This document shows, piece by piece, positions 24,927 through 40,449 of a stretch of DNA of 64,000 nucleotides (within the stretch, counting starts at the first letter, position 1; the number at the start of each line of letters is the position of its first letter). The DNA is taken from positions 1-64,000 of the forward strand of contig NZ_JACSPP010000006.1 in the NCBI RefSeq assembly GCF_014837065.1. Reading direction: 5' to 3'. The notes under the pieces are model-generated. The model had not been told where the DNA came from and made no database searches. It saw nothing but the letters and a program-made list of their open reading frames with translations. The position numbers and the translations under genes were made by a program. The stretch comes from Phocaeicola intestinalis (lineage in GTDB: Bacteria; Bacteroidota; Bacteroidia; Bacteroidales; Bacteroidaceae).

Positions 24927-25847
24927 ATGGAAATAATCAGTGCCGAAAGCCCATTTGCGTTTCCGCCTTGCGCAGCCACTATCGGGTGCTTCGACGGCGT
25001 GCATCGCGGACATCGATACTTGATAGAGCAAGTGCACCGCGAAGCCCAAGCCAGGGGATTGCAGAGCACGCTGGTTACTTTCCCTGTCCATCCCCGGCAG
25101 GTCATGCAAAGCGGTTATTGTCCGCAATGGCTCACTTGCCTTCCTCAGAAAAAAGATTTGTTACAGCAAGAGGATGCCGATTATTGCATCCTTTTGCCGT
25201 TTACGCACGAACTGTCACTGCTTTCGGCACGTCAGTTTATGGAACTGCTGCACGTCCGTTTCAACGTGCAGGCACTGGTTATCGGTTACGACCACCGCTT
25301 CGGGCACAACCGGAGCGAAGGGTTCGAGGACTATTGCCGCTATGGGAAAGAGTTGAGTATGGAGGTAATCCATGCCCAGGCGTTGGAAGAAGACGGCTTG
25401 TCTATCAGCTCCAGCCTCATCCGCAACCTATTGAAAGAAGGTGACGTGGTGCGTGCCAACCGCTATCTGGGCTATCGCTATTACCTCGACGGGCAGGTGG
25501 TAAGCGGCTATCAGGTGGGGCGCAAACTGGGTTTCCCTACCGCCAACCTCCAACCGTCCTGCCCCGACAAGCTGGTACCGAAAGAAGGGGTCTATGCCGT
25601 TTACGCGTATGTGGAGGGGAAACGCTACGCCGGCATGCTGAACATCGGCAGCCGCCCCACGATAGGCAACGGCACCGAGCGGAGTATCGAGGTGCACCTC
25701 ATCGGCTTCGAAGGCAACCTGTACCAGCACGCTCTTCGGGTAGAGTTCATGCAATACATCCGTGAGGAACAGAAGTTCGAAGGCATCGGTGCTTTAGTTG
25801 CCCAGCTGCAACAAGACAAAGCAACGATTATCCGGCTGTTGGGTTGA
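24927..25847 (+). CDS. ribF: Bifunctional riboflavin kinase / FAD synthetase
   Basis: A 306-residue RibF. The N-terminal FAD synthetase domain shows GCFDGVHRGHRYL (residues 18-30), and SISSSLIRNLL near residue 170 ends it; the C-terminal riboflavin kinase domain has GRKLGFPTANL near residue 197. It makes FMN and FAD from riboflavin in the cytosol. The ATG start gives standard length. A broken second copy of its 3' end lies at 28469-28614, flanking the sigma-barrel and methyltransferase genes, so that two-gene segment sits between one whole and one ruined ribF. Confidence 0.95.
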   Translation: MEIISAESPFAFPPCAATIGCFDGVHRGHRYLIEQVHREAQARGLQSTLVTFPVHPRQVMQSGYCPQWLTCLPQKKDLLQQEDADYCILLPFTHELSLLSARQFMELLHVRFNVQALVIGYDHRFGHNRSEGFEDYCRYGKELSMEVIHAQALEEDGLSISSSLIRNLLKEGDVVRANRYLGYRYYLDGQVVSGYQVGRKLGFPTANLQPSCPDKLVPKEGVYAVYAYVEGKRYAGMLNIGSRPTIGNGTERSIEVHLIGFEGNLYQHALRVEFMQYIREEQKFEGIGALVAQLQQDKATIIRLLG

Positions 25848-25894
25848 AAGTTTGAAACGCAGATTAGCGCAGATTTCCGCAGATTATTCTTTAT

Positions 25895-25972
25895 TTACCA
25901 CAGAGGACGCAGAGTATCACAGAGTCTTTTAAAAAATTCTCTCTGTGCTATTCTGTGACCCCTGTGGTGAAT
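25895..25972. repeat. Palindromic CCACAGAGG intergenic repeat
   Basis: TTTACCACAGAGGACGCAGAG faces an inverted, imperfect CTCTGTG ... CCTGTGGTGAA. Other members of the family lie at 28655-28685 (partial), 47271-47349 and 51119-51186. Confidence 0.65.
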
Positions 25973-26035
25973 TTTATCATATAAGCTAATTATGAATAGT
26001 TACTTACCTAATATAAGTTAAAAGGCGAATGCCCG

Positions 26036-26065
26036 TGCAGTCTTTCATGTCATGTCTTATCATAT
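26036..26065 (+). promoter_or_regulatory. Candidate ECF-type promoter of the sigma-barrel gene
   Basis: TGCAGTCTTT, 10 bases, CTTATCATAT. The same two words with exactly the same spacing occur upstream of the methyltransferase gene (27604-27633), while the 10 bases between them differ. Nothing else nearby matches the housekeeping TTTG/TAnnTTTG form. The 3' word ends 21 bases before the ATG. This looks like the target of the sigma domain encoded just downstream. Confidence 0.6.
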
Positions 26066-26086
26066 ATAAATGGACTGAAACATGAT

Positions 26087-27586
26087 ATGAGCAACGAAGA
26101 ACTAATAGAATTGTGCAAGCAAAGGGATGAGCAGGCTTTAAGTCTGCTCTATACTACTTACGTGCATAAAATGAGAAAGATTTGCTGCCAATATGTTGCT
26201 GACAAAGAGATTGTAAACGATCTCCTGCACGATGGTTTTATCATAATCTTCACATCTATCAGTGACTTGCGTTCTCCCGATAAATTGGAAAGCTGGATGG
26301 GGAAAATCATGAAGAATATCTCACTGAAATATTTGGAGCAATGCCGTTCCGTCGTCACAAAGCCTTTAGATGATATAAAAGAAGATGAAGAACCCCTGGC
26401 ACTATCTTATGACGCAAATGAGATCCCCACTTATAACACTATACTTGAGATAATAGAAAGATTGCCCAAAGGCTATCGCCACATCTTTAAGTTAGCGGTA
26501 TTGGAAGGGCTTTCCCACAAAGAAATAGCCCGATTATTGAAAATAGCCCCTCATTCTTCCTCACAACTGTCAAGGGCAAAGGACATGTTGCGTAAACTGC
26601 TGATCCAATACCGCATCGTGGCAGGGCTGCTTGCATTATCTTCTATCATATCTTTATACATCTTTTTGTACACGCCTAAAAAACAATCAAAACCGAAGCT
26701 CACATCAACGGATAAGCCACAAAAGGAACAGCAGGTCGAAACTATTTTATTATCAGATTCAAACATCTATGCGTCCAATCCCCGGCACGCACATGCTGAA
26801 CCCCAAGAAACTATCAAAACGAAACAAGAAATGGTTTCACAAGACAATCCTACCGAGAAAAAAGACAGTACATCATTGCCTGAACGAAAAACAACGGACA
26901 ACCAATATGCCATAAGCGATAAAAACACTCCTTATGGTATGATGCCCTCATACGTCTCTAACAGTAAAAAGAACTGGACTTTAAGCTTGTCTTATTCGGG
27001 AGGAGAAAAACATACAGATGCCCACAAGAGATTCATTCCTTCCGATGACATCATATCAGGAGAACCCAAAGAAGAACTGAAGAAATCACATCACCGGATG
27101 CCTGTCACATTCTCCCTTACACTGCATAAAAACATAAATGAGCGTTGGGGCGGAGAAATCGGTCTCCAATACACGCATTTGCGCTCTGATTTTACCATAA
27201 TTGGTGACAACCGCATGGAAGGCATTCAGAAAATCAACTACATCGGAATACCGCTTAAAGGAACATTGAATATATGGAAGCAAAAGAGCTTTTCCATTTA
27301 TACCTCGGCAGGAATCACCTTGGACATACCTGTGGAATCCACTTTCGAAAAATCCGTTTGGGAGAACGGGCAACTCATCCTTCGCCAAAAGAACAATTTA
27401 TATCCGTCTTTGCAATGGTCAACAAGTTTTGGCATCGGCATCCAATACCAACTTGCTCCTAACATTGGCATCTATGCGGAACCCAATTTACACTATTACT
27501 TCAACAATGGAGATAACATTGAAACAATCCGAACGGAAAAACCATTAAACGTGACGCTGCCTATAGGCATCCGCTTTTCTTGGTAA
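26087..27586 (+). CDS. ECF sigma factor fused to a transmembrane helix and an outer-membrane beta-barrel
   Basis: A 499-residue single frame with three parts. Residues 1-175 are an ECF sigma factor: region 2 (LLYTTYVHKMRKICCQY; NDLLHDGFIIIF) and region 4 (IIERLPKGYRHIFKLAVLEG, then LSHKEIARLLKI). One hydrophobic helix follows (about 180-198, VAGLLALSSIISLYIFLY), then a polar linker of about 100 residues rich in Lys, Glu and Gln. The C-terminal 200 residues are amphipathic strands of an OMP barrel, ending in an aromatic residue (GIRFSW). This predicts one chain from cytoplasm to outer membrane, with sigma activity presumably released by proteolysis. No separate anti-sigma gene is adjacent. The reading frame is continuous, so it is not a sequencing join. 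Confidence 0.85.
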   Translation: MSNEELIELCKQRDEQALSLLYTTYVHKMRKICCQYVADKEIVNDLLHDGFIIIFTSISDLRSPDKLESWMGKIMKNISLKYLEQCRSVVTKPLDDIKEDEEPLALSYDANEIPTYNTILEIIERLPKGYRHIFKLAVLEGLSHKEIARLLKIAPHSSSQLSRAKDMLRKLLIQYRIVAGLLALSSIISLYIFLYTPKKQSKPKLTSTDKPQKEQQVETILLSDSNIYASNPRHAHAEPQETIKTKQEMVSQDNPTEKKDSTSLPERKTTDNQYAISDKNTPYGMMPSYVSNSKKNWTLSLSYSGGEKHTDAHKRFIPSDDIISGEPKEELKKSHHRMPVTFSLTLHKNINERWGGEIGLQYTHLRSDFTIIGDNRMEGIQKINYIGIPLKGTLNIWKQKSFSIYTSAGITLDIPVESTFEKSVWENGQLILRQKNNLYPSLQWSTSFGIGIQYQLAPNIGIYAEPNLHYYFNNGDNIETIRTEKPLNVTLPIGIRFSW

Positions 27587-27603
27587 AAAAGTGATGGCTT
27601 TCA

Positions 27604-27633
27604 TGCAGTCTTTTACCCAAGGGCTTATCATAT
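27604..27633 (+). promoter_or_regulatory. Second copy of the candidate ECF promoter, upstream of the methyltransferase
   Basis: TGCAGTCTTT, 10 unrelated bases, CTTATCATAT; ends 30 bases before the ATG at 27664. Identity of both words and of the spacing with 26036-26065 suggests one regulator for both genes. Confidence 0.6.
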
Positions 27634-27663
27634 CCATGGAGAATAACTCAAATAATCATCAGT

Positions 27664-28452
27664 ATGCAAAAGCGTCACAAAGACAGGACTGTTTATTTCA
27701 AAGAGCTTTCCATTACGAGTAAGAACTATTTTATTCCCTATATCCGGAAGTGGCATCCGGTAGAAGCAGGAATGAAGGTATTGGAGATTGGTTGTGGTGA
27801 AGGCGGAAATTTGCTCCCTTTCTCTGAAATGGGATGTAATACCACTGGGGTCGACATCGCGGAGAGCCGGATCAAAGATGCCATGGCATTCTTCAAGGCT
27901 GCTCATGCAAAAGGAGTGTTTATCGCACAAGACATTTTCCTGTTAAATGAATTGAAACAGGATTTCGACATCATCATTTGCCATGATGTATTGGAACATA
28001 TTGTCGATAAAGAACTGTTTTTAGTTCATCTGAATAAATACCTGAAACCTCAAGGCATTGTTTTTATGTCATTCCCAGCATGGCAAATGCCGTTCGGAGG
28101 GCATCAACAGATTTGCAGAAGCAAAATCTTGTCCCACTTGCCTTTCATTCATTTGCTACCTGCTACAATCTACCGGTTATTGTTAAGGGCTTTCAGGGAA
28201 AGCGATGGCTGCGTGGCAGAATTACTTTCCATCAAATATACACGCGTAACAATAGAATCGTTTGAGAATTTAGTCAAAAAAACATCCCTAAGCATCCAAA
28301 ACAGGGAACTATGGTTTATCAATCCTCACTACAAAATAAAATTTGGATTATCTCCACGCAAGCTAAGCAAATACATAGCCCGCATTCCTGTTTTTAGGAA
28401 TTTTTTCAGCACAAGCTGCTTCTATATCCTAACCAGAAAAAAACTTACGTGA
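27664..28452 (+). CDS. Class I SAM-dependent methyltransferase
   Basis: A 262-residue protein with the SAM-binding motif VLEIGCGEGGNLLPFSEMG near residue 39, GVDIAESRI near residue 60 and DIIICHDVLEHI near residue 101, the usual Methyltransf_11/23 pattern. A basic, hydrophobic C-terminus (IARIPVFRNFFSTSCFYILTRKK) could contact the membrane. The substrate is unknown; relatives often act on polysaccharides or lipids. It follows the sigma-barrel gene by 77 bases and shares its upstream motif, so it is probably a member of that sigma factor's regulon. Confidence 0.85.
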   Translation: MQKRHKDRTVYFKELSITSKNYFIPYIRKWHPVEAGMKVLEIGCGEGGNLLPFSEMGCNTTGVDIAESRIKDAMAFFKAAHAKGVFIAQDIFLLNELKQDFDIIICHDVLEHIVDKELFLVHLNKYLKPQGIVFMSFPAWQMPFGGHQQICRSKILSHLPFIHLLPATIYRLLLRAFRESDGCVAELLSIKYTRVTIESFENLVKKTSLSIQNRELWFINPHYKIKFGLSPRKLSKYIARIPVFRNFFSTSCFYILTRKKLT

Positions 28453-28468
28453 GTTCATAACAGTGTTT

Positions 28469-28614
28469 CCAAGAGACAGGCAAGGGTTACGGAGCGTGTT
28501 GGTTACTTCCCCTGCCTGCCCCAGAAAGAAGACGAACAGAAGTTCGAAGGCATCGGTGCTTTAGTTGCCCAGTTGCAACAAGACAAAGAAACGATTATCC
28601 GGCTGTTGGGTTGA
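28469..28614 (+). pseudogene. Scar of a second ribF
   Basis: The first part (about 28469-28530) resembles the ribF sequence around 25046-25150, and from about 28534 it matches the ribF end (25768-25847) almost base for base, including the stop. The interior is deleted. The following 60 bases also match the sequence downstream of ribF (25848-25900). A duplication of ribF and its 3' flank therefore brackets the sigma-barrel and methyltransferase genes. Confidence 0.85.
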
Positions 28615-28808
28615 AAGTTTGAAACGCAGTTTAGCGCAGATTTCCGCAGATTATTCTTTATTTACCACAGGACACAGAGAAATAAAATAAAGTAATGTCA
28701 TTCTTCGCTACGCTCTCTTATTGTTTTTTTCAGATAATCAAATTGTCTTAATCCATGTCTCTGTGTTCGAACTGTTTAATTGGGAAAACAAAGAAAAAGC
28801 AGGGAAAA

Positions 28809-28840
28809 TTTGCGGATATGTATCTGATTAGTTACTTTTG
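28809..28840 (+). promoter_or_regulatory. Consensus promoter of the toxin-antitoxin operon
   Basis: TTTG (28809-28812), 20 bases, TACTTTTG (28833-28840): a full match to the Bacteroides -33/-7 consensus. The expected start of transcription falls at or next to the toxin ATG at 28845, so the mRNA may be almost leaderless. Confidence 0.7.
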
Positions 28841-28844
28841 CGAT

Positions 28845-29203
28845 ATGGAAGGGAACAAGATATACATACGAAACATCTATTGGACGGCAGAATTTGTGCA
28901 ATTCTACAACGAGCTTTCGGATAAAGTCAGGATAAAATTCGATTATGTGCTCGAAATAGTCAAAACAGAACGTGTCATATCAACAAAATTCGTGAAACGT
29001 CTGGAGAATACAGACTTATACGAAATGCGAGTATCTGTAGGCGGAAACGAATATCGGACGGTAATGTTCACAATGAGAATGTTATACTGGCAACAGAAAT
29101 AACCCTGCTGAACGCATTCATGAAGAAGTCGTCCAAAGACTATAAGAAACAAATCAGCTTAGCAGAAAACATATTAAACAGAATCAGCTATGAGAAAGAT
29201 TGA
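28845..29203 (+). pseudogene. RelE/HigB-type toxin broken by a frameshift
   Basis: From the ATG at 28845 (MEGNKIYIRNIYW) the frame has toxin features (VRIKFDYVLEIV; LYEMRVSVGGNEYRTVMF) but leaves frame near 29066-29075 and stops at 29102. In the next frame the expected C-terminus continues (NENVILATEITLLNAFMKKS ... NILNRISYEKD) to 29203, overlapping the antitoxin start by 14 bases as normal for such pairs. So the gene is intact except for one shift of a few bases, which probably inactivates an mRNA-cleaving toxin while the antitoxin stays whole. A sequencing error is possible. Confidence 0.8.
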
Positions 29204-29492
29204 TACAAGCAAACTGGTTGATGCCGAAACGGTATTGACAGACAAGTACGGCGCACCCGGTACCGAGAGCCGGCGTGAGTTCGAGGCGAAGGCACGTGCG
29301 TATTATTACGGTGTCATTCTGCGTGACAGGCGCAAGGAATTGAAGATGACACAGAGCGAGCTTGCCGACAAGGTAGGCACTGCAAGAAGTTATATTGCCC
29401 GCGTGGAGCGAGGGGAAACGGATATGCAGCTTTCCAGTTTCCTGCGAATAGCCCAGGCTTTGCAGATAGACTTCACTCCGGTCTTTATATGA
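29190..29492 (+). CDS. HigA-type XRE antitoxin
   Basis: A 100-residue protein with a helix-turn-helix (MTQSELADKVGTARSYIARVERG, about residues 52-74) followed by a typical XRE core. The N-terminal 40 residues probably bind the toxin. It overlaps the frameshifted toxin reading frame and would repress the consensus promoter at 28809-28840. With the toxin broken, it may survive as a free repressor. Confidence 0.88.
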   Translation: MRKIDTSKLVDAETVLTDKYGAPGTESRREFEAKARAYYYGVILRDRRKELKMTQSELADKVGTARSYIARVERGETDMQLSSFLRIAQALQIDFTPVFI

Positions 29493-29551
29493 CAGAAGTG
29501 AACAGCATATCTCGCTTTTTTATGGAAATCACTGCTCCGTCCGACGCATCT

Positions 29552-29656
29552 CAGTCCTCCTAAAATCCTAATAAGGCAGGACTGCAGTCCTAATAGGGGT
29601 AGGACTGGAGTCCTAGGCTGTCAAGACAGCAGTCCTACTCTGCTAGGAGTGAGGAC
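29552..29656. repeat. Cluster of AGTCCT/AGGACT words
   Basis: Within 105 bases AGTCCT occurs four times and AGGACT twice on the + strand, several joined to CTGC or TA so that small palindromes form. It lies in the 331-base gene-free stretch 29493-29823, which otherwise shows nothing recognised. Possible roles are a terminator region or a protein-binding array. Confidence 0.5.
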
Positions 29657-29823
29657 ACAAGCAGATGTATATACACAATCATCTAAGGTGATATATTGTT
29701 GGCTGCCTTTTGCTTCGTAAAGATAGTTAGCATAATCGGCGGATTAGGCAACGGTTTGGCGGTCGGATTATCAGGCAAAAACAAATCCGCAGGAGCCGGA
29801 AACGGGGCTGCTGCGGATTCGGT

Positions 29824-30306
29824 TTAGAGTTCGAAGATAACATAGCAGGGCTTGCGGTCGATTGCGAAAAGAATCTTATACAATCCCTTTTTTACCGAAG
29901 AGGCGGAATAATTGTAGAGCGGAATTTCCGTCGTGTAATCCACTCCGGCGAAAAGATAAGAATCCCCCATAAGGATTTTGCGGAATGCTTCCCGCAGTTC
30001 GGGGGCAATCGTCTCCTCGGTGATGTCTTTCCATTGCCCGTCTTCGTAATAGTATAGCGCATATTCCTCTCGCCCGTGCGCCCATGGGTACACGGAACTC
30101 CGTGTCCAAATCACGTCATCAAGCGAATAGTTAAAGGTTACTTTCAGTACGACTTCGCACTTTACGTTCATCCCCTTCGGGAAACCGTATGCGCCGGGCT
30201 GCGGCACTTCGACCGTCTTCTTTTCTTCCGTCTCTTGTGCCTTGCCCCCGCAGCTGAGGAGGCAGAGGCACAAAAGTATTCCTAAGAGCCTGTTTTGAAT
30301 TTCCAC
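29824..30306 (-). CDS. Small lipoprotein, Ig-like fold, paralog of 38960-39499
   Basis: A 160-residue lipoprotein: signal RLLGILLCLCLLSC with the lipobox cysteine at residue 20, then a beta-rich domain ending YSASSVKKGLYKILFAIDRKPCYVIFEL. The end matches the paralog at 38960-39499 (KKGLYRLTFLLAGRRCHIVFQL) and resembles bacterial Ig-like domains. The start is GTG and aligns with the ATG of the paralog; the 5' end lies inside a dispersed intergenic repeat (30291-30365). It is the last gene of the SusC-SusD-TlpA row, 57 bases after the TlpA-like gene. The function is unknown. Confidence 0.7.
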   Translation of the reverse strand: MEIQNRLLGILLCLCLLSCGGKAQETEEKKTVEVPQPGAYGFPKGMNVKCEVVLKVTFNYSLDDVIWTRSSVYPWAHGREEYALYYYEDGQWKDITEETIAPELREAFRKILMGDSYLFAGVDYTTEIPLYNYSASSVKKGLYKILFAIDRKPCYVIFEL

Positions 30307-30365
30307 AAAAGGTTTTTCTTGGCCTGATGTATTCGTTTTCGTATATGCTTTGGGCGAGTTCTTTT
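30291..30365 (+). repeat. Dispersed repeat starting near GCCTGTTTTGAATTT
   Basis: About 75 bases are closely related to 49396-49470 (shared words include TTCGTTTTCG and GCTTTGGGCGA), and a reversed, more diverged copy lies near 36466-36565. The 49396 and 36466 copies both end in a GATAGYCCGCTATC palindrome. The repeat overlaps the start of the neighbouring lipoprotein gene. Confidence 0.6.
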
Positions 30366-31569
30366 AGTGTTGATAGGTTTCTTTCAGGAACTTGTCGAGT
30401 GCTGGACCTCGCATATTCACTTTATAGAAGCGGCCTTCCGGATCGAGTACGATGCAGGTCGGTACAGCAGTGATATTGTATTTCTTCACTGTGTTTCCCA
30501 TAATGCCGTCGGCGATACGTGCCTGTGTCCACGACATATTTTCTTCTTTCAGTGCCTTTAGCCATTCTTCTCTTTTTTCGTCTACCGAAATGCTGATAAT
30601 GGCAAAATCTTTGTATTGCTTGTTCACTTTTACCAAATGCGGGATTTCTGCCCGGCACGGACCGCACCAGCTTGCCCAAAAGTCCAGCAGTACATATTTG
30701 CCCGAAGGTATCAGTGACGCGAGTTTAACGCTCTTTCCATCGGGATTTTCTACATCGATGTCTATGTACTTATTACCTAAGGCAAGGGGGGTTATTACGT
30801 TCACCATGGAGTCCAGTTCAGCCAGTTGAGGAGTTCCTTGCCAAGCATCCGTTATCCAACTTTTCATTTCTGTAATTTCTTTTTCATTGAAATTGACGGT
30901 AAGCCCAGAGAATAAGGCTTTCAATTGGTCTAAAGCTACTACGGAAGAAGGGTTTTGTTGGATAAACGCTTTTACTTTTTGTATATATTGTTGTTGGTAG
31001 TCGGCTTGTTTTGTTACTAAGTTGATGCCAATATCGGTATAATCTTTTTTGTGTTCTCGGTCTGCCATCATCGGTTTAGTATATTCTTCGAGGAACTGGC
31101 GGTCGATGGCCTGCAAGGAATCGCTGTAAGGTTTCAGTGTTGTCAGCAGTTGTTGGTAGAGGTCTTGAGTGGCAGATCCTTTGATGACCGGTGGGATTAC
31201 TTTACGGTCTGGAGTCCAATAAATACTGGGCAGGCAATCGAATTCGCCTTCGATGGTGATGGGCGAATTTTCCAAATAGAAATTGGTTACGAATACTTTT
31301 CCTCTTGGGCTTTCTTGAGGATTGGTACGTGTGTCTATGTACAAGGTATACATTTCCGGCTGGTTTATTTGTCCTTGTAGCCGGAATTTTCCATGTTCCA
31401 TAACGGCACTGTCAATGCGCATCACTTCGAAAGGGAGTTGTTTTTGCAGGTAAACCTTGCCTTCGGGAATGCTGTCGCCCGTCAAGGTTCCTTCGATGGT
31501 ATATCCTTTTTCTTGGGGTTGGCAAGCTGCCAGTGTGGCAAGTGCTGCCAGTAAACATAATTTTTTCAT
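30364..31569 (-). CDS. TlpA-like thiol:disulfide lipoprotein with N-terminal DUF4369
   Basis: A 401-residue lipoprotein (LAALATLAACQ, cysteine at residue 16). The N-terminal region (KGYTIEGTLTGDSIPEGKVYL) is DUF4369-like, a helical middle follows, and the C-terminal thioredoxin domain has FWASWCGPCRAEIP near residue 292 with both redox cysteines. Such proteins act in the periplasm to reduce disulfides or take part in outer-membrane uptake systems. It lies 28 bases after susD on the same strand, so it belongs to this SusC/SusD operon. Confidence 0.9.
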   Translation of the reverse strand: MKKLCLLAALATLAACQPQEKGYTIEGTLTGDSIPEGKVYLQKQLPFEVMRIDSAVMEHGKFRLQGQINQPEMYTLYIDTRTNPQESPRGKVFVTNFYLENSPITIEGEFDCLPSIYWTPDRKVIPPVIKGSATQDLYQQLLTTLKPYSDSLQAIDRQFLEEYTKPMMADREHKKDYTDIGINLVTKQADYQQQYIQKVKAFIQQNPSSVVALDQLKALFSGLTVNFNEKEITEMKSWITDAWQGTPQLAELDSMVNVITPLALGNKYIDIDVENPDGKSVKLASLIPSGKYVLLDFWASWCGPCRAEIPHLVKVNKQYKDFAIISISVDEKREEWLKALKEENMSWTQARIADGIMGNTVKKYNITAVPTCIVLDPEGRFYKVNMRGPALDKFLKETYQH

Positions 31570-31597
31570 AAGAATGTTGTTTGGATGGTTTTTACTA

Positions 31598-32998
31598 TTA
31601 ATTCAGGGTGTATGAAGGGTTTTGTTCCAGTAGCTTGTTTCCGCTTAGGGCCGACCGGGGAATAGGCAAATTGAGATGTGCCATTGAATGCACATATCCC
31701 AAGCTTACGAAGTCGGTACCGTCCAGTTGTGAATATCGTACCATATCATACCACTCTTCGTAGTTCTCGGCACTCAATTCCAGGTATTTGTGCCGGAAGA
31801 TAGCAAGCAGCAGATCGTTGTCGGCTATTGTGTCTACATAGCCTGCGGCATATCCGGCACGGTCGGTTAGGGGTTTCAGCGCCATACGGGCCGCTGCATA
31901 TTGCCCGTTTCTGGCTTCTGCCTCAGCTTTTATTAAATATACTTCGGCAAGGCGCATCAGGTAGTATGTATTATTGTCGCCGGTAGCCGCGTCGTTCAGT
32001 ACGTATTTTTGCAGAAGGTTTCCCGCTTCGGTGCTTAGGTAGGTTTGTGTATAGCGCGGGTCATTGCCAGTAGGGTCTAATTCTTCGGCAATCAGCTTAA
32101 TGGTAGTGCCGAAGCCGCGCATAGCGGCGTCTGTCACTTTGGAGCCATATATTTGTTCCTGTGGATACGATACGTAGGGTGCCATCAGCAATTCGTGTGA
32201 ACTGAATCCTTGAGAAAAAATGTTCAAGTAATTGCTTTCTAATGCCATGCCGCTTCCCAAGGCTTCGTCGATGGTGGCTTGTGCGGTCTGTGCCGCTTCC
32301 GCATACCGGTTCAGGTAGAGCAATACGCGTGCCTTCAGGGCGTTTACGGTAATTTTGTTCACCTTATAAGCCATGCCGGCGTAAGCCGGAGCTTGTTCGG
32401 CTTGTTTCAAGTCAGACAAGATTTGGCTGTAACATTCGGCTACGGTAGAGCGTCCTTTTGCTTCGCTGTTGTCGCGTACCGGTTCGTTGTATAAGATGAT
32501 GCCGTATTCGGATTTTTGGTCCCAAAATTCTCCGAAGGCACGTAGCAACATAACTTCGGCAAAAGCCTTGTGGAAATAGGCTTCGCCCAGAATTTCCGAT
32601 TTTCGTGTATCGGAAAGTCCTTGCGGCCGCTTGTTTTCCAGTTGTACGATGAGGGAGTTTGCCTGGTTGATGATGCTATAAAGTACAGTATAATAATTGA
32701 GCACGGCATTGTTTTCTATTCTCACGTCATTATTGGCAAAGTTAGTAGAACCTTCTACGTCCGAGTTGAGCAACGTGCCTGTCAAGATAAACATTGCGGG
32801 GCGCAAAGAGGCGAACTCTCGTTGGCGGTAGTATTGGTAGATGCCGTTCAGCAAGTATTCGGCAGAGTTGGCGTCGGTGATGACGTTGTCGTCTGTCAGT
32901 ACATAGTCGGGATGTATATCGTCTACTGGCCCCAGCAGGTTACATGCCGAAAAGGAGACTCCTGCAAGCAAGGTATAAATAAGGTGTTTGATTTGCAT
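31598..32998 (-). CDS. SusD/RagB-family nutrient-binding lipoprotein
   Basis: A 466-residue surface lipoprotein (LLAGVSFSACN lipobox near residue 19) with TPR-like helices (AYFHKAFAEVMLLRAFGEFW; NALKARVLLYLNRYAEAA) and the SusD C-terminus (RHKYLELSAENYEEWYDMVRY; HLNLPIP). It caps the SusC transporter and binds the ligand outside the cell. The gene follows susC by 19 bases. No polysaccharide-degrading enzyme is encoded next to it; together with the thioredoxin partner this suggests a substrate other than a large glycan, but it cannot be named. Confidence 0.93.
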   Translation of the reverse strand: MQIKHLIYTLLAGVSFSACNLLGPVDDIHPDYVLTDDNVITDANSAEYLLNGIYQYYRQREFASLRPAMFILTGTLLNSDVEGSTNFANNDVRIENNAVLNYYTVLYSIINQANSLIVQLENKRPQGLSDTRKSEILGEAYFHKAFAEVMLLRAFGEFWDQKSEYGIILYNEPVRDNSEAKGRSTVAECYSQILSDLKQAEQAPAYAGMAYKVNKITVNALKARVLLYLNRYAEAAQTAQATIDEALGSGMALESNYLNIFSQGFSSHELLMAPYVSYPQEQIYGSKVTDAAMRGFGTTIKLIAEELDPTGNDPRYTQTYLSTEAGNLLQKYVLNDAATGDNNTYYLMRLAEVYLIKAEAEARNGQYAAARMALKPLTDRAGYAAGYVDTIADNDLLLAIFRHKYLELSAENYEEWYDMVRYSQLDGTDFVSLGYVHSMAHLNLPIPRSALSGNKLLEQNPSYTLN

Positions 32999-33017
32999 AT
33001 TGATGTTTGTTTTAGGG

Positions 33018-36000
33018 TTAGAATTGAAGTTTTACGCCTATCGAGAAAGTTTTCGATAAGGGATAGGAATCGTAGTTGGTACCCATAAGTGTGGTGCCCG
33101 AACCTACCGATTCCGGATCAAGTCCCGGCCAGCCGCTTACGGTGAATAAGTTAGTAGCAACGGCATAGACGGAAGCTCCGGCGATGTGTAGTTTGGAGAG
33201 CCACGGCTTAGGGAGATTGTATGAAAGGGTGATGTTTTTCATCCTGAGATACGAAGTGCTGAATACATATCGGTCCAACAGGGAAGTATTGTAATTGTAT
33301 ATGCCATCGCCTATGCGAGCATACTTGGCGTCGCGGCGGTCGGGAGTCCAGAAATTGTCATACAGTTCGGGATTGATGCCTTTGCCTGCTATTCCTATCA
33401 TATCGGCGGCAAGGTCATTGTATAAGGCTTCTCCTCCTTGTGAGAACTGCATCAAGATGGAGAGCGACCAGTTTTTGTAACTGAAGGTGTTGTTCCATCC
33501 GCCGAAGAAGTTTGGCTCAGGATTGGCTATTACGGTTTTGTCGCCGGTGGTCGAGAATACGCCATCGCCATCCAGGTCTTTCAGTAAATAGTCGCCTACA
33601 CCTGTAGTAGCTTGGTATACTGTTCCTTCTCCATATCGGGCGGCAGCTTGCGCATTGAGCCGGTCCAGTTCGCTTTGGTCTTGCACGATGTGGTCTACTA
33701 TGTATCCTTGTACTACCCCAACTGGCTTGCCTACCACGAAGTAGTCTTGCATATAGGTGTCTATCTGCGCGTTGTTCAGCTCTTCCACGCGGTTGCGGTT
33801 CAAAGACAAGTTGAGGATAGAACTCCAGTTGAAGTTGTTGGTGCGCACGATGTCGGTACCTAGTGACAATTCAAAGCCGCGGTTGCTCATGTCGATGATA
33901 TTGTCGTAATAGGTATTCATGCCCGCTTCCCAGATGTGGGGCGCAGGAGCCAGCGCGCCATCGGTATAGCGGTAATACCAGTCAAGGCTTCCGTACAGCC
34001 GGTTATCGAATAAGCCGAAGTCCAACCCTACATTGACTTCACTGGTCTTTTCCCATCCGATGTTCCGGTTGGGGAGGGTGCCGTTCAGCACGATGGTACT
34101 TCCGTTGCCGTAAGGATAGTCGCCATACGTATAATATTGCTTGTACACAAAGTCTGCCACGTTGGTCGAACCGGTCTGTCCCAGGCTGAGGCGGAACTTC
34201 AAATTGTTTATCTGCTTTTTGTTTTTGATAAAGTCCTCTTCGCTGATAATCCATCCGGCAGACAGGGCAGGGAAGAAGCCCCACTGGTTTTCGGGGCCGA
34301 ATTTCGAAGAAGCATCCGCACGCATACTCAATTCTACCAAGTAACGTCCGTCATAGTCGTAATTTACACGTCCGTATACCGAGTTCAGTCCGTTTTTGCT
34401 GGAGGTTTCGCTTTTGCCGTACAAAGTTTGGGCTGAACCTATGTTGTTCAGGTTTTCGTCGTCGGGGAATCCTTGGAAGGTAAACGAACGGCTATGTGCC
34501 TTGCTGCGTTCAGAGCCGTAGCCCAGCATTGCGCCGAAGAGGTGTTTACGGATATTGAGGCTGTAGTCCAAACGGAAATTCAATGACATTGTCGTGTATT
34601 TGCTGTCGCTGGTAAGCAGTGTCGATTCTAGCGGAAGCCCTAAGTTCGACATATCTATGCTTGCTACCTTTGGAGTGAAATATTCCGATTCGAAGGTATA
34701 GTTGGTCATGCTGAAGTCTGTACGGAATTTCAGCCCTTTCATCAGGTCGATTTCGGCGAAAAGGTTTCCTAAGAATTGATTGCTTGAGTAAGTGGTGCGG
34801 CGTTGCGTCAAGGCTACAGGGTTGGGCTCCAGTTGCAGTCCTGCCATGCCATACATTTCCAATCCAGTGTCAATGCGTGTGTAATTGCCGTCTTCATCGT
34901 ATACAGTTATGTCGGGTCGTACCAGCCAAGGCTTGGTGTCGCTGCTTGCTGTGCCTAGCCCGTCGCTGGTGCTGCGTCGGTTGGTTTCCGAGTAGTTCAT
35001 TACGCCGCCTATCCGTATGTGGTTGTTCAGGTCGGTATTGAGCGCAAGGCGTCCTCCGTAAGTTTCCAGGTTATCATTGCGGTAAAGCCCTTGTTCGTTT
35101 TGGCCGTTAAGCGAGAGAGAATAATTGGTTTTAGCCGAGCCTCCGCGTATCGAAGCCGTATATTGGTGGGTCAGCGCGTTGCGGTTCATCACTTCGTCGG
35201 TCCAGTTGGTGTTTGCCGTGCCGAACATGGCTTGGTTCAGTCCGTGGTAGATGTACGAACCGTCTTCAGCATAGCTTACGTTTGCCAGGGCATCGATGGC
35301 GGCTGAGTAGCCGATGCCTTGATTCCAGGCATCAACGGCGTTGCGCAGGTTTTCGTCGGTATATTTCAGGAAGGCCTCGTTGCTCATGGTGTCAAACATT
35401 TTCGTGGGGTTGGCTATCGAAAGGGTATATCCTACCTCTACCGAAGGCTTGCTCTCTTTGCGTCCGTCTTTTGTCGTTACGATGATGACTCCGTTGGCTC
35501 CGCGTGAGCCATAGATGGCGGTGGCGGAAGCGTCTTTCAGCACATCAATGCTTTCGATGTCGTTGGGAGAAAGGTTTTGCAGGGGATTGATGCTGGTGCT
35601 TTCGGCAAACAGGGGCACGCCGTCGATTACGTAAAGCGGCGCATTGTTGTTGGTTCCTGTCTGCATATTGGGATAAGGGGCGGTGACGCCGCGCACGTTG
35701 ATGGTGATGGAAGCGCCCGGTTCGCCGCTGTTTTGTGTGGCAAGCACACCTTTCACCATGCCGCCTCCCAGCAGGTCTTGGATGTTGTGTGATACGGGTG
35801 CCATCCGTTCGATATCTTCTTTCTTTACTGATGAAATAGAGCTGGTCAGACTTTTACGGTTTTTGCTTCCATATCCTATGACCACTACGTCTTCCAATGC
35901 CACATGGTCATCGCGCAAGGTTACGTTCAACTGGTGTTGCCCTTTATAGGCGATGTGCTGGGTTTGCATTCCGATGAAAGAGAATACCAAAGTAGCGTTG

Positions 36001-36266
36001 TGTTGTTCCTTTCCTATTTTTAGTTGGTAGCGTCCGTCAATGTCGGTGATGGTTCCTGTAACTGTCCCTTCTATCGACACCGATACGCCCGGCAAAGGTT
36101 CTCCGTGGCTGTCGGTCACAATTCCCGTCAATGTCGGCCCGTTTTGCCGGGCGTAGCTTGCCGACGGCATCTGGCTTTCTTGAGGCATATCCGTTCTTGC
36201 GGCATAAATGACGGTGCCGCTGCATAAAGCAAGAAATATGCACGCAAACGTTTTTCTTGTATTCAT
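33018..36266 (-). CDS. SusC/RagA-family TonB-linked outer-membrane transporter
   Basis: A 1082-residue transporter: signal peptide, carboxypeptidase-regulatory-like domain (LTGIVTDSHGEPLPGVSVSI near residue 46), TonB box/plug region (VVIGYGSKNRKSLTSSIS near residue 129), SusC signature (IESIDVLKDASATAIYGSRG near residue 235), and a long barrel ending in FSIGVKLQF. There is no N-terminal STN domain, so it does not signal to a FecR/ECF pair directly. It is the first gene of the four-gene leftward operon. Confidence 0.95.
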   Translation of the reverse strand: MNTRKTFACIFLALCSGTVIYAARTDMPQESQMPSASYARQNGPTLTGIVTDSHGEPLPGVSVSIEGTVTGTITDIDGRYQLKIGKEQHNATLVFSFIGMQTQHIAYKGQHQLNVTLRDDHVALEDVVVIGYGSKNRKSLTSSISSVKKEDIERMAPVSHNIQDLLGGGMVKGVLATQNSGEPGASITINVRGVTAPYPNMQTGTNNNAPLYVIDGVPLFAESTSINPLQNLSPNDIESIDVLKDASATAIYGSRGANGVIIVTTKDGRKESKPSVEVGYTLSIANPTKMFDTMSNEAFLKYTDENLRNAVDAWNQGIGYSAAIDALANVSYAEDGSYIYHGLNQAMFGTANTNWTDEVMNRNALTHQYTASIRGGSAKTNYSLSLNGQNEQGLYRNDNLETYGGRLALNTDLNNHIRIGGVMNYSETNRRSTSDGLGTASSDTKPWLVRPDITVYDEDGNYTRIDTGLEMYGMAGLQLEPNPVALTQRRTTYSSNQFLGNLFAEIDLMKGLKFRTDFSMTNYTFESEYFTPKVASIDMSNLGLPLESTLLTSDSKYTTMSLNFRLDYSLNIRKHLFGAMLGYGSERSKAHSRSFTFQGFPDDENLNNIGSAQTLYGKSETSSKNGLNSVYGRVNYDYDGRYLVELSMRADASSKFGPENQWGFFPALSAGWIISEEDFIKNKKQINNLKFRLSLGQTGSTNVADFVYKQYYTYGDYPYGNGSTIVLNGTLPNRNIGWEKTSEVNVGLDFGLFDNRLYGSLDWYYRYTDGALAPAPHIWEAGMNTYYDNIIDMSNRGFELSLGTDIVRTNNFNWSSILNLSLNRNRVEELNNAQIDTYMQDYFVVGKPVGVVQGYIVDHIVQDQSELDRLNAQAAARYGEGTVYQATTGVGDYLLKDLDGDGVFSTTGDKTVIANPEPNFFGGWNNTFSYKNWSLSILMQFSQGGEALYNDLAADMIGIAGKGINPELYDNFWTPDRRDAKYARIGDGIYNYNTSLLDRYVFSTSYLRMKNITLSYNLPKPWLSKLHIAGASVYAVATNLFTVSGWPGLDPESVGSGTTLMGTNYDSYPLSKTFSIGVKLQF

Positions 36267-36372
36267 TTTTGTCTTTTTTTGAGGGTTAAATATAGTAATC
36301 CGTTGGCTGGCCTCGGGTACGAGGTTTTATCTTGATGTAAGTCTATCAGGCAGCAATTGGATTATGGTTTTA

Positions 36373-36409
36373 CAAAATTTGCGAAAATTATTCATATTTG
36401 CAAATTTTG
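36373..36409. promoter_or_regulatory. Palindrome upstream of the SusC operon
   Basis: CAAAATTTGC (36373-36382) and its exact inverse GCAAATTTTG (36400-36409) lie about 110 bases upstream of the susC start, inside the gene-free stretch 36267-37370. A possible operator; no clear -7 element could be assigned. Confidence 0.35.
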
Positions 36410-36670
36410 CTTTGATAATCTCTGAAAAATGAGGGGCATTCAAGATGGTTATCTAAGCAAATACGTCAAGACAAGAAGTCAGATAGTCCGCTATCCTCCT
36501 TATAAAATCAGAAAAACAATCTTCGAAAACAATTCTTAAAAAAACCTGAGCAAAATTCAAACAGGCTTTAATCGGGAGTGATAAAAAAGATATATTTGTT
36601 AATACAAGATAAGGAAAAGAATCTAATTATTAAAGCGTGTTATAAAGCATAAGATTTTTGTTCTTATCGC

Positions 36671-36768
36671 TTGCTATATTCCGGAAAGTCCGTACATTTG
36701 CAATGTGTTTTTCATAGTATTAGATTTAAGGTTAACAAAGGTTGGAGTACAGCGGTACTCCTTTTTTT
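36671..36768 (+). ncRNA. Candidate small RNA with its own promoter and terminator
   Basis: TTG (36671), 19 bases, TACATTTG (36693-36700) forms a near-consensus promoter. About 60 nt follow, including TTTTTCATAGTATTAGATTT and GGTTAACAAAGG, ending in the hairpin GGAGTAC-AGCG-GTACTCC (36744-36761) and seven T. I recall very similar stretches at many Bacteroides loci, possibly related to the Bacteroidales-1 RNA family, but the family name is uncertain. No convincing coding frame is present; the 64-codon frame here runs straight through the hairpin. Confidence 0.6.
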
Positions 36769-36868
36769 ATGCCCGCACGCTTCATTTGCCGGGCTTTTCC
36801 GGAGCGGTCTGTAAATCCGGTAAGGAGAATGGGTTGCCACATTCATTCTATATAACCGTATCGCCAAC

Positions 36869-36906
36869 ACGATTAGTAATCGTCAAGCTGCACGATTAGT
36901 AATCGT
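36869..36906. repeat. Two tandem 15-bp palindromes (ACGATTAGTAATCGT)
   Basis: Perfect palindromes at 36869-36883 and 36892-36906, 23 bases centre to centre, about two helical turns. This looks like a pair of operator half-sites or a binding array; no gene directly downstream explains it. Confidence 0.55.
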
Positions 36907-36977
36907 ATCGGTATTGCAGTTATATGCCCAAACTCCAGTTTCAACAGTTTGTTTTATAGTAAAACAAAATTGGTTTG

Positions 36978-37137
36978 CGAAAAAATGGAACGCAGAGACG
37001 CAAAGACGTGGGGAAATAATTTAGAGAGAAGGCAAAGAACACGGAGCCAAATGTCACTCTCTGTGTGCTTTGCTCTTAAAAAAATAAACTTTGTGCTTCC
37101 GCGTCTCTGCGTTCCATTCCATTTTTCGTAATCCATT
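36978..37137. repeat. Inverted repeat of the GGAACGCAGAGACGC family
   Basis: The left arm near 36978-37006 (CGAAAAAATGGAACGCAGAG) faces the right arm near 37099-37131 (CTGCGTTCCATTCCATTTTTCG). It is related in style to the CACAGAGG palindromes elsewhere. A small frame across it is an artefact of the repeat. Confidence 0.6.
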
Positions 37138-37162
37138 TTTGATAGACTATATCTGGCTATAT

Positions 37163-37296
37163 AGTTCCTATGTTGGTAATGTGCTAGCAAAATAGCATAA
37201 AGTCATGGGTTTTATTAAGTTATTTCTTTCATTTACAAATTTAATAATTCTCTTGGCTTTATGCTATTTTGCTAGCACATTACAAACATAGGAACT
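37163..37296. repeat. 40-bp near-perfect inverted repeat around a 54-bp AT-rich centre
   Basis: The arm 37163-37202 and the arm 37257-37296 are inverse complements with one mismatch; each contains GTGCTAGCAAAATAGCATAAAG or its inverse. The centre has no gene. The size and form fit a MITE-like element or a very stable hairpin. Confidence 0.75.
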
Positions 37297-37370
37297 AAAA
37301 ACTTAATATCTTTCATAATGGAATTTTTTCTTATACTTCGGGCTGCATTAATTTGTGCATTTTGTATATG

Positions 37371-38093
37371 TCATGTAGTAGAGACGATGTGCACATCGTC
37401 TCTACAGAAACAGTGCGAAATGTTCAATGAAATGCACAAATTCATGTCGTACATGGTATAATTTCGGATGCCAAGGTGCAATTGGATATCAGCTCTATCT
37501 GCTTCAACGTTCTCTTTTAATATACTAATGGGCTGTTCGCCATGTACTGGTTTAAACCAGATGGCAGGGGAATCGGAGACATTTCTCTTGAACTCCTCAA
37601 TTTTTGCAGGAGAATATTCCAGCAATCCTACTACTACAACGTTTGCCGAATCAAGCACATAGCAATAGATGAAATTGCTTGCCTTGTAATCTTTATTCTT
37701 TATCATGTGGTCGGTCAGTTCATCCATTACCTGATTCAGATAATTATAAGAAAATTTGCAAGGCTTGAAAACAAGGTTGCCGGCATTTTCCGTCATCGAT
37801 TTTATCTGCGCTTGCCCGCTTTCGTTCGTAGCCAACACAACCAATTGTTTTTGGTCGTTAATGAAACATCCGCCATAGTAATCGGGATAGATAGAGGTTG
37901 CACCACGGGCGGCGGCCTGCTTGAACCCTGCTATCAGCTTCGCATGGGTTTCCAACGCTTTCTCTTCGGTATTCACTTGAAGAGCAGGTTCACTCTGAGC
38001 ATTGACTTCTGTCAATACTTCGTTTTCTGAACACGATATCAATTCCATCGGAATCAGTACCAACAATCCGATTAAACAATAAATTCTTTTCAT
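37371..38093 (-). CDS. Putative lipoprotein, apparently truncated at the C-terminus
   Basis: A 240-residue protein with a lipoprotein signal (LIGLLVLIPMELISCSEN, cysteine at residue 21) and a soluble domain (AAARGATSIYPDYYGGCFINDQKQLVVLATN) that resembles the N-terminal region of some Bacteroides trypsin-like lipoproteins. No serine-protease triad follows. The last 15-20 residues (LCISLNISHCFCRDDVHIVSTT) are encoded by a 28-base perfect palindrome (37378-37405) and its flank, so the natural C-terminus seems lost to a repeat. Upstream it shares a 75-base region with the 38960-39499 gene. Confidence 0.6.
   Translation of the reverse strand: MKRIYCLIGLLVLIPMELISCSENEVLTEVNAQSEPALQVNTEEKALETHAKLIAGFKQAAARGATSIYPDYYGGCFINDQKQLVVLATNESGQAQIKSMTENAGNLVFKPCKFSYNYLNQVMDELTDHMIKNKDYKASNFIYCYVLDSANVVVVGLLEYSPAKIEEFKRNVSDSPAIWFKPVHGEQPISILKENVEADRADIQLHLGIRNYTMYDMNLCISLNISHCFCRDDVHIVSTT
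37378..37405. repeat. Perfect 28-bp palindrome
   Basis: GTAGAGACGATGTG followed by its exact inverse complement. It overlaps the 3' end of the truncated lipoprotein frame. It could act as a terminator stem or be the core of a repeat element. Confidence 0.6.
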
Positions 38094-38118
38094 GATTATT
38101 GGTTTTTATATTAAACAT

Positions 38119-38193
38119 TCTCAAAGATAGGCTTTTTCGTGATAGTCTGTTACATCTCCCGCCTTTTTAACTTCCTCTTTTAACAATGTGAAC
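38119..38193 (-). promoter_or_regulatory. Upstream region shared with the 38960-39499 gene
   Basis: About 75 bases are nearly identical to 39530-39602, and each lies just before a leftward lipoprotein gene (starts 38093 and 39499). On the minus strand they contain TGTAACAGACTATC and, after a short spacer, TATCTTT. This resembles an ECF-type -35/-10 pair more than the housekeeping promoter form; it is inferred to be a common promoter. Confidence 0.55.
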
Positions 38194-38336
38194 GACGTAA
38201 AACGTTTCATAGTATGTCGTTTTTTAATGAAACAATTAAATTAATACAAGATGACGTCATTTGCGTGGCAAGTTGGATGAAAAAGCAAAAGAATTTGATA
38301 GTTTTTATAGATTTGCCCGTGTAAAATTTTGTGCCT

Positions 38337-38852
38337 ATGAAAACAATTCTCTTTTTATTATTATCGCTTGCCCTGTTTTCTTGCCAAGGAGGACACAAGC
38401 AGGACGTCAAATCCACTGAAGAAACAAAACATCAGATTGTGGATACTGCTTCAGTCTATTATATTAACCCTTTGCCCCTCTATTTCATTTTAGGAGGCGA
38501 TACGGTATATACGCTTGTTGACGGCGGTCTTGTATTTCCCATACATACCTCTGCTCCCGATGATCCAGACTTGTTTATCGACTTGAATAATTATGTGAAG
38601 AAAAAGGTGGCAAACGCACATCTTGGCAAAGGGTCAGTAGATCTCGTTTTCATCATCGACAAGGAAGGGTATGTCCGGGACGTGACTATTGAAAAATCGG
38701 CGAAAGAAAGCGGTGCCAATCCCAATGTGGCTGCCCGTATGGATTCTATAGCCTGCAAAGTAATAGCCAATCTGCCCCGCTTCACCGCTCCGGCAACAAG
38801 AAAAGGTAAGTCTGTGAATTTCTTAAAGAGATGGACGGTACGGTTTGAGTGA
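38337..38852 (+). CDS. Lipoprotein with a TonB C-terminal-like domain
   Basis: From the ATG at 38337, 171 residues: a lipoprotein signal (LFLLLSLALFSCQGG) and a C-terminal domain (KGSVDLVFIIDKEGYVRDVTIEKSAKE; ANLPRFTAPATRKGKSVNFLKRWTVRFE) that matches the TonB C-terminal fold with its typical VxFxVxxdG and lPxfkPg patterns. It lacks a membrane anchor of TonB type and a proline-rich linker, so it is not a normal TonB. The role is unknown, perhaps periplasmic protein contacts. A GTG two codons upstream is less likely as start. Confidence 0.75.
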   Translation: MKTILFLLLSLALFSCQGGHKQDVKSTEETKHQIVDTASVYYINPLPLYFILGGDTVYTLVDGGLVFPIHTSAPDDPDLFIDLNNYVKKKVANAHLGKGSVDLVFIIDKEGYVRDVTIEKSAKESGANPNVAARMDSIACKVIANLPRFTAPATRKGKSVNFLKRWTVRFE

Positions 38853-38959
38853 CTGAAGTTACCCGTTCTTGCAGATTTGCAATCCGGCAAACATCTAAGC
38901 TACTGCTTTCTGGTAGGTATCTGTTAAGCGGATTAAAATTGACTTCGTCGACCTTCGGT

Positions 38960-39499
38960 TCAGAGCTGGAAGACGATGTGGCAACGCCTGCCTGCCAGCA
39001 AGAAGGTGAGGCGGTACAGCCCTTTTTTCACCTTGCCTTCCGTGATGTTATAGAACGGGATGTCGAACCGGACCGGTTTGCCCGGACGGAGGATTTGCCA
39101 AGCTTCTATCTTTACCAGGTTGCTGGCTTCAAGCTCTTCTTCGGATTGCGGGTTTGCCTCCACGTAGTTTCTTTCTTTTTTCTTGTGTGCGGACGGGCGG
39201 GGCAGCTTCATTTGTCCGGTCACTTCTTTCCACCCTTCGTTGTCTTGATAATAAATATAGCAAGGGTACTTCGGCAGGTAGTCGTGCATCAGCAGCGTGC
39301 AATCCTTTTCCGACTGATTGACCATCGCCACAATTACCATCGTGTCCTCCGGGCTGACGCGCCACGCCACCTTTATCCATTCTGGAAAGCCGGACGCGCC
39401 AAGGGGGTATGCCTCGGCTGTCTTTGCTTTCTTGCTTCCGCAGCTGAGGAAGCAGAAGCAGAGCAGAAGGAACAGTCCTTTAAAAGCGTTTGTTTTCAT
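38960..39499 (-). CDS. Small lipoprotein, paralog of 29824-30306
   Basis: A 179-residue lipoprotein (GLFLLLCFCFLSCGSKK, cysteine at residue 20) with a beta-rich domain and the ending KKGLYRLTFLLAGRRCHIVFQL, shared with the 29824-30306 protein. Both also share the YGFP/SGFP motif after the signal. An Ig-like domain is likely. It stands alone behind the repeated 75-base upstream region (39530-39602). The function is not recognised. Confidence 0.75.
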   Translation of the reverse strand: MKTNAFKGLFLLLCFCFLSCGSKKAKTAEAYPLGASGFPEWIKVAWRVSPEDTMVIVAMVNQSEKDCTLLMHDYLPKYPCYIYYQDNEGWKEVTGQMKLPRPSAHKKKERNYVEANPQSEEELEASNLVKIEAWQILRPGKPVRFDIPFYNITEGKVKKGLYRLTFLLAGRRCHIVFQL

Positions 39500-39529
39500 A
39501 GGAATAAGCTTTATGTGTTGAATGTCCTC

Positions 39530-39602
39530 GAAAGATAGGCTTTTTCGGGATAGTCTGTTACATCTTCCGCCTTTTTAACTTCCTATTTTAACATTATGAA
39601 CG
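39530..39602 (-). promoter_or_regulatory. Second copy of the shared lipoprotein upstream region
   Basis: See 38119-38193: the same TGTAACAGACTATC and TATCTTT words on the minus strand, about 30 bases before the ATG at 39499. Confidence 0.55.
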
Positions 39603-39634
39603 GATCGCCTGTCCGTGCCGGGGCATCTCTTGCG

Positions 39635-40000
39635 TCACACACCTAATACGATGTTTGCATCAATGCTTAATTTCCGGCTTATCTCACGGGCTACTTTCAG
39701 TGTAGGTTCGCATTTCCCGGAGATGTAATCGCTTAGACGTGAAGGGCTGACGCCAATCAGTTTAGCCAAAGACTTCTGGTTCAACCCCATTTCGTACATA
39801 CGGAGTTTGAGGATGTCGACAAGCGTAGGTTCTCCCAATGCGAAATGCTCTTCCGAATAGTCAGCAACAAGGTTGGACAGCAATTCCAATTCGATGCTGC
39901 TAGGGTCATCGAGAGGCGTCTCGTCCGTAACCAACGGAAGAAGTTCCTCGACTCTTTTTACAGCCCAATCGTATTGAGCTTTTGTTTCTATCTTTGTCAT
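39635..40000 (-). CDS. higA: HigA antitoxin (XRE family)
   Basis: A 121-residue protein with N-terminal toxin-contact helices and a C-terminal helix-turn-helix (NQKSLAKLIGVSPSRLSDYISGK, about residues 75-97), the usual order in HigA of the HigBA type. It neutralises the HigB ribonuclease encoded 4 bases upstream and represses their shared promoter. Confidence 0.9.
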   Translation of the reverse strand: MTKIETKAQYDWAVKRVEELLPLVTDETPLDDPSSIELELLSNLVADYSEEHFALGEPTLVDILKLRMYEMGLNQKSLAKLIGVSPSRLSDYISGKCEPTLKVAREISRKLSIDANIVLGV

Positions 40001-40004
40001 AAGT

Positions 40005-40301: not shown

Positions 40302-40324
40302 TGGGCCGTTTGATTATCACAGCA

Positions 40325-40355: not shown

Positions 40356-40449
40356 ACAATATTTTGATATTTATAATTATGCTATAAAAATAGCGGTACC
40401 CCGAAAGATACCGCTATATGCAACTCGGTGTTTCCGTGTTCATTTTTAA

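Follow-up and report, generated by a model that had tools for sequence, protein, structure and literature searches.

We analyzed the first 64,000 nt of contig NZ_JACSPP010000006.1 of Phocaeicola intestinalis (hereafter the window) and focused on a gene at positions 26087–27586 of the forward strand that encodes a sigma factor, a membrane helix, a linker and an outer-membrane-type beta-barrel in one polypeptide. We consider it probable, at roughly 0.6, that the gene is a unit of the Dma3 type whose sigma domain, once freed by proteolysis, would turn on the gene itself and an adjacent methyltransferase gene. The architecture is not new, having been described in print as Dma3 of Bacteroides thetaiotaomicron; the founding paper on Dma proteins reportedly appeared in PNAS in 2024. 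What the sequences add is the grouping of such genes in phylogenetic trees, the absence of a segment of about 49 residues that precedes the helix in two-gene Dma proteins, a pair of promoter-like elements, and a neighboring two-gene lineage with a similar pair and a methyltransferase.

The gene is a single stop-free frame of 499 amino acids, and its translation and Pfam matches bore out the domain order of the original prediction, which had read the frame as ECF sigma regions 2 and 4 followed by a transmembrane helix, some 100 residues of polar linker and a 200-residue barrel whose last residue is aromatic. The matches over the Pfam cut-off were Sigma70_r2 at residues 21–84 (PF04542; window positions 26147–26338, like all features below on the forward strand), Sigma70_r4_2 at residues 118–165 (PF08281; 26438–26581) and OMP_b-brl at residues 333–479. 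The predicted transmembrane helix, the most hydrophobic 19-residue stretch (residues 177–195; 26615–26671), follows the sigma domain after about 3 residues, and no anti-sigma segment lies between them. From the helix to the first barrel strand are 101 residues (26672–26974), a linker predicted from the structural model to be disordered and presumably periplasmic. The barrel (residues 297–499; 26975–27583) has an OmpA-like fold according to Pfam, the model and Foldseek, and ends in Trp. The AlphaFold modeling that had been proposed as a check gave a model that is weak overall (mean predicted local distance difference test score [pLDDT] 58, predicted template modeling score 0.37), with sigma helices, disorder at residues 193–293, strands at 297–498 and a low-confidence helix at 158–195 linking region 4 to the membrane segment. 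The top Foldseek match was OmpA (E 7.4e-8), and sigmaE, AlgU and SigW were among the 50 matches listed. As judged from sequence and this weak model, the protein combines the features of the Dma3 type, namely an N-terminal sigma domain, a helix, a long disordered tether and a C-terminal barrel; Dma3 is likewise described with its sigma domain at the N terminus. The original prediction had set this layout against systems with separate FecR and TonB receptor genes. The single-chain layout stood, but the comparator did not: neither a FecR nor a TonB-receptor domain was found in the protein (Pfam, E ≤ 1; protein only), the FecR/TonB reading was dropped, and the proper comparator is the Das/Dma family.

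An assembly error, raised at the outset as a possible source of the long frame, is unlikely because a second species carries the gene (in genome G025 it lies within a contig of 4.24 Mb and differs from the window copy by two substitutions and an additional Ser codon) and because 39 distinct single-frame genes of the same layout exist, the window and G025 included. Near-identical sequences were removed from the element counts over these 39 genes, as well as from the helix and linker survey, the rooted sigma tree and one of the larger sets used for the trees described below. The original prediction had called for a search for the same architecture. In 37 of the distinct genes, the distance from the sigma domain's end to the start of the helix is −3 to +5 residues and the linker spans 97–142 residues (mean 113); all but one (36/37) end in Trp. 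Within the genus, a full-length single-chain match was present in 9 of 61 genomes, and one more, G036, carries a frame of 574 aa; within the family, 57 of 399 genomes matched at E ≤ 1e-42, and 21 of the 24 new loci were single frames, the rest being cut by a contig end (L052), a frame break (L053) or a stop (L065). Sampling across the order gave matches at E ≤ 1e-25 in 75 of 344 genomes, for the most part to the sigma or the barrel part separately; the single-chain genes among the 28 new loci were in G763 of another family (L088) and in the window's family (L089), with a broken one (L090) in G843, which belongs to the same family as G763. G763 has a second single-chain copy, and among the matches inspected, a subset of the total, single-chain genes outside the window's family occurred in that one other family. 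Four candidates for further fusions with frames of 590–650 aa (L028, L034, L093 and L102) were rejected as two adjacent genes in the same frame with a stop between them, and the frames of this length in G019, G023, G053, G652, G846 and G833 were not counted as fused. The L044/L053 copy in Bacteroides pyogenes is broken into two reading frames, and L065 (in G207) has a lone in-frame TGA between region 4 and the helix, where many relatives have Trp; this stop would yield a free sigma factor, and it may be real or an error.

The ratio of nonsynonymous to synonymous substitution rates (dN/dS) was computed for eleven pairs of relatives, none of which includes the window gene. For the sigma part it was 0–0.24 in ten pairs and 0.47 in L056/L057, a pair whose barrel and linker values were dropped as the domain split failed; for the barrel, nine of the 10 usable pairs gave 0.09–0.36 and L015/L017 gave 0.70. 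In all 10 usable pairs the linker had a higher value than the sigma part, and in 8 of them a higher value than the barrel. The low values at both ends show that purifying selection, as a rule, acts on both the sigma and the barrel end in relatives.

The window genome also has a das/dma-like pair (at C85, locus L002), in which the sigma factor and the Dma-like protein are encoded by separate genes. The sigma and barrel ends of the single-chain protein are 45% and 39% identical, respectively, to this pair, which indicates homology to Das and Dma by sequence. Both forms have the helix and, ahead of the barrel, a long stretch, but in two-gene systems such as those of Dma1, Dma2 and the C85 pair the sigma factor is separate and the helix of the Dma protein is preceded by a median of 49 residues (68 open reading frames, including duplicates and the broken L065), a segment that carries DYSEP.P..LW in many of the 60 listed. 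This segment has no counterpart in the single-chain proteins (37 distinct genes), which are therefore not simply a sigma factor joined to a whole Dma, and the N-terminal cytoplasmic segment before the helix that marks Dma1- and Dma2-type anti-sigma factors is lacking.

In both the sigma and the barrel tree, the single-chain genes form one group apart from the two-gene das/dma pairs. All single-chain rows fell on one side of one branch, with 38 against 64 rows in the sigma tree (support 100/99) and 40 against 58 in the barrel tree (a quick tree; support 98 in the Shimodaira–Hasegawa-like approximate likelihood ratio test). These larger trees are unrooted, count truncated or interrupted genes (contig end, stop or frameshift) among the single-chain ones, and leave out six other ECF (extracytoplasmic function) sigma factors of the window genome. 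When the sigma tree was rooted on other ECF factors, the single-chain genes and three broken relatives made a 42-row clade (99/99). One two-gene row, L029, adjoined this clade (95/84) and stood beside the single-chain group in the larger trees (100/91 for sigma, 79 for the quick barrel tree), but its branch is long and its placement less sure. Multiple origins were considered and rejected: a first one-clade test spoke against a clade (approximately unbiased test, P = 0.002) because the broken relatives L065, L082 and L084 had been left outside the group, and the larger, reclassified sets gave one branch. The existence of homologs as separate genes, named in the original prediction as grounds for abandoning it, thus holds only for the more distant relatives.

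Upstream of the single-chain genes we identified a promoter-like element. An alignment of 15 upstream regions from the clade of the window has the 85% consensus TGCAGT.TTT, followed 12–13 nt on by ATC.TA; elsewhere the second half is GGAC-type in a group of 14 that includes L018 and L055, and ATC-type in most of 11 other upstream regions. In the window, the form TGCAGTCTTT-N13-ATCATAT occurs at 26036–26065, ending 21 nt 5' of the start codon and conserved in relatives, and again at 27604–27633, beginning 17 nt past the stop codon. Scanning both strands of the 4.07-Mb window genome for TGCAGTNTTT-N9-14-ATCAT gave two matches, 26036–26063 before the single-chain gene and 27604–27631 before the methyltransferase gene; the longer form likewise had 2 matches and its backwards-read control had 0, and no element matches were found in shuffled window sequences. 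In eight other genomes, all 12 exact matches to the ATCWTA form lay at single-chain loci (backwards control 0). Almost all the scanned genomes had been picked because they carry these genes, and the patterns were drawn up with the loci already in view, so the informative part of these scans is the scarcity of other matches. Of the 39 distinct genes, 29 have the short element TGCAGTNTTT in the 200 nt upstream and 27 in the 200 nt downstream; the expectation is 0.009 per 200 nt, with the elements themselves included in that rate. A sigma-70 promoter scan of 25700–28800 returned 14 sites (shuffle mean 7.9, standard deviation 2.9) with neither element among them and was not used.

Two-gene das genes also carry a related element, and the element could be read by other Das sigma factors, the single-chain gene then being mainly an output of two-gene Das/Dma systems. 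In favor of this, TGCAGTNTTT stands within 200 nt upstream of 28 of 68 two-gene das genes, mostly as TGCAGTATTT with a CATTT-like second half, TGCAGTCTTT itself occurs at L029/L180, and excerpts of PMC13088901 report that the dma3 locus (bt_2778-2779) is induced in B. thetaiotaomicron dma1 and dma2 mutants (this and the other PMC articles are cited from excerpts throughout). We regard it as improbable nevertheless: the common two-gene form differs by A for C at position 7 and in its second half, the short element stood downstream of dma in only one of 60 two-gene loci (L029), and G060, a genome with two-gene pairs only, had no ATCWTA-form element genome-wide, though its L029-type locus has the ATCT form.

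The second element precedes a gene at 27664–28452 that encodes a class I S-adenosylmethionine (SAM)-dependent methyltransferase of 262 aa (Pfam Methyltransf_23/31), the putative output gene. As a rule, a class I methyltransferase is the next gene in the window's clade; in other clades the next gene resembles a radical-SAM protein, a small lipoprotein, a family 2 glycosyltransferase or an acyltransferase, names that come from reading the sequences and not from Pfam. The model of the methyltransferase (pLDDT 60) is too weak for naming a substrate, and its sequence matches are varied methyltransferases. At the two-gene loci L180 and L181 (L029-type loci of G008 and G060), TGCAGTCTTT stands before das and again after dma, and a methyltransferase similar to that of the window follows the second copy; the circuit of element pair and methyltransferase therefore exists both with and without the fusion. 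A wider reading, to which we give slightly less than even chances, is that the gene provides a one-polypeptide route from the surface to a regulon of just two promoters, its own and that of a single neighboring envelope-modifying gene, that it arose by a single fusion from a das-dma-methyltransferase circuit in which the anti-sigma segment was deleted and membrane attachment came to replace the anti-sigma factor, and that outputs were later swapped (methyltransferase, radical SAM, lipoprotein, glycosyltransferase) with the promoter pair kept.

For the Dma3-type unit we propose that the barrel would sit in the outer membrane with the linker spanning the periplasm and the helix anchoring the ECF sigma domain at the inner membrane. 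With no signal, the sigma factor would be held inactive by its tethering, with region 4 beside the membrane helix, and not by a separate anti-sigma segment. A signal at the barrel would expose the linker to proteolysis, an RseP-type protease would then cut within the membrane, and the freed sigma factor would start transcription at the TGCAGTCTTT-N13-ATCATAT elements, of which the window genome has two. Activation of its own promoter would replace sensors consumed by cleavage, which makes sense as resupply because each released sigma factor would cost one sensor, and the product of the methyltransferase gene probably modifies an envelope molecule.

Proteolytic release is plausible by analogy with IutY of Pseudomonas putida (ECF243), in which the sigma factor is freed by Prc and RseP (PMC5411451, PMC8999054), and from the presence of an M50 (RseP-type) protease gene in the window genome. 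Excerpts of a review name IutY as the only ECF sigma factor with characterized proteolytic activation (PMC8999054). As described there, IutY too has sigma factor and membrane regulator in one chain, but it differs in that its anti-sigma domain is periplasmic and its receptor, IutA, is a separate protein; the FecR-like periplasmic domain of IutY/FecR-type signaling was not found in the window protein (Pfam, E ≤ 1). The actinobacterial groups ECF48, ECF52 and ECF53 also have a sigma factor with a C-terminal membrane extension, but differ by a zinc-finger anti-sigma region and one or two helices, and the excerpted review mentions no outer-membrane barrel for them (PMC8999054). Alternatively, the sigma factor could work while tethered, the state of the barrel and linker altering its access to RNA polymerase near the membrane with no cut. 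Both sigma regions are present, no protease site was identified in the protein and there is no separate anti-sigma segment, all of which would suit such a mechanism; against it, the membrane helix lies directly beside region 4, where it should get in the way of promoter binding, and IutY needs both Prc and RseP (PMC8999054), and we find a tethered mode of action unlikely.

The signal may also be different from a surface ligand. If the protein were an envelope-stress monitor, failed insertion of the barrel would open the linker to proteases and free the sigma factor, and the signal would be assembly or periplasmic stress. The OmpA-like barrel with its C-terminal Trp (36 of 37 genes), the lack of any sensory domain besides the barrel (Pfam) and the reported influence of Dma1 and Dma2 on vesiculation in B. 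thetaiotaomicron (PMC13088901) are in keeping with this, but one or two genes carry the element, not an envelope-repair regulon, and we think a stress monitor somewhat unlikely.

The literature on Dma3 itself is thin. Excerpts of a 2026 article (PMC13088901) describe Dma1–3 of B. thetaiotaomicron, place the sigma domain of Dma3 at its N terminus, use ECF21 as the group label for Das/Dma and state that very little is known about Dma3; in these excerpts there is no mention of a Dma3 promoter, a methyltransferase link or an absent anti-sigma segment, and those of PMC12596196 contain no mention of Dma3. BT_2778 is annotated as a sigma-70 factor with a 2.3-fold value for −Fe/+Fe (PMC10434189). Neither the element pair nor a link to the methyltransferase was described in the literature listed for dma3, BT_2778/2779, ECF21 promoters and tethered sigma factors, a search with subscription papers mostly outside its coverage.

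Several observations weigh against the Dma3-type unit as we propose it. The AlphaFold model is of low confidence at the junction of the sigma domain and the helix, and in B. thetaiotaomicron deletion of dma3 leaves the dma1/dma2 vesicle phenotype unreversed (PMC13088901). The backwards-read control of TGCAGTNTTT-N9-14-ATCAT gave 1 match in the window genome, and a short element with no second half lies inside a gene at window position 22228. Over the distinct genes, the short element was absent upstream in 10 and downstream in 12 of 39. The variant forms are less specific: for the GGAC form, 7 of 9 matches lay at single-chain loci and 4 of 8 genomes had no match, the remaining two matches being elsewhere in G763, and for the ATCT form, 7 of 8 lay at single-chain or neighboring two-gene loci (four at single-chain loci, three at L029-type loci of G008 and G060, one elsewhere in G202) and 2 of 8 genomes had no match. 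The neighboring two-gene lineage has the TGCAGTCTTT first half, and the element therefore needs no single-chain sigma factor.

A further point concerns the window allele. At about 26552, in region 4, the window reads APH-SSSQ and G025 reads APHSSSSQ; this segment has seven residues in 37 of the 39 distinct single-chain sigma sequences and six in the window, one sequence not fitting the search pattern. The missing Ser codon adjoins a TTC repeat at a site that we take to be the start of the recognition helix of ECF region 4. Its absence may reflect genuine slippage and weaken the protein, or it may be an error; the window allele may therefore be impaired in function. If the sigma part were nonfunctional in this strain, the gene would act only as a barrel. 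This one-residue deletion and the broken relatives (L044/L053, L065, L082, L084 and L090) speak for such a loss, and the low sigma dN/dS in relatives and the retention of the element pair in the window against it; we judge it very unlikely.

Some observations stand beside this analysis. The element-variant matches away from single-chain genes (G763 C7:119265 and C11:164, G202 C1:61568) are possible further targets. Window positions 26000–28500, which hold the single-chain gene and the methyltransferase gene, are 99.2–100% identical to G025 over five consecutive 500-nt blocks, other blocks being 79 to 99% identical; a recent exchange is possible, though a few other blocks also reach 99%. G025 matches the window on either side of positions 28652–40448 and lacks that stretch, which starts with a toxin-antitoxin-like arrangement of a short open reading frame weakly resembling Gp49 (below the Pfam cut-off) and one with a helix-turn-helix.

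If the proposed reading holds, the element pair would amount to a precise two-promoter regulon. The two-gene lineage with a similar pair and the same kind of output, represented by L180 and L181, offers a natural comparison for the fused form and would allow anti-sigma control to be compared with tethering to the membrane alone. Having signal and output in a single locus, the system could serve as a small model for surface-to-transcription signaling in gut Bacteroidota.
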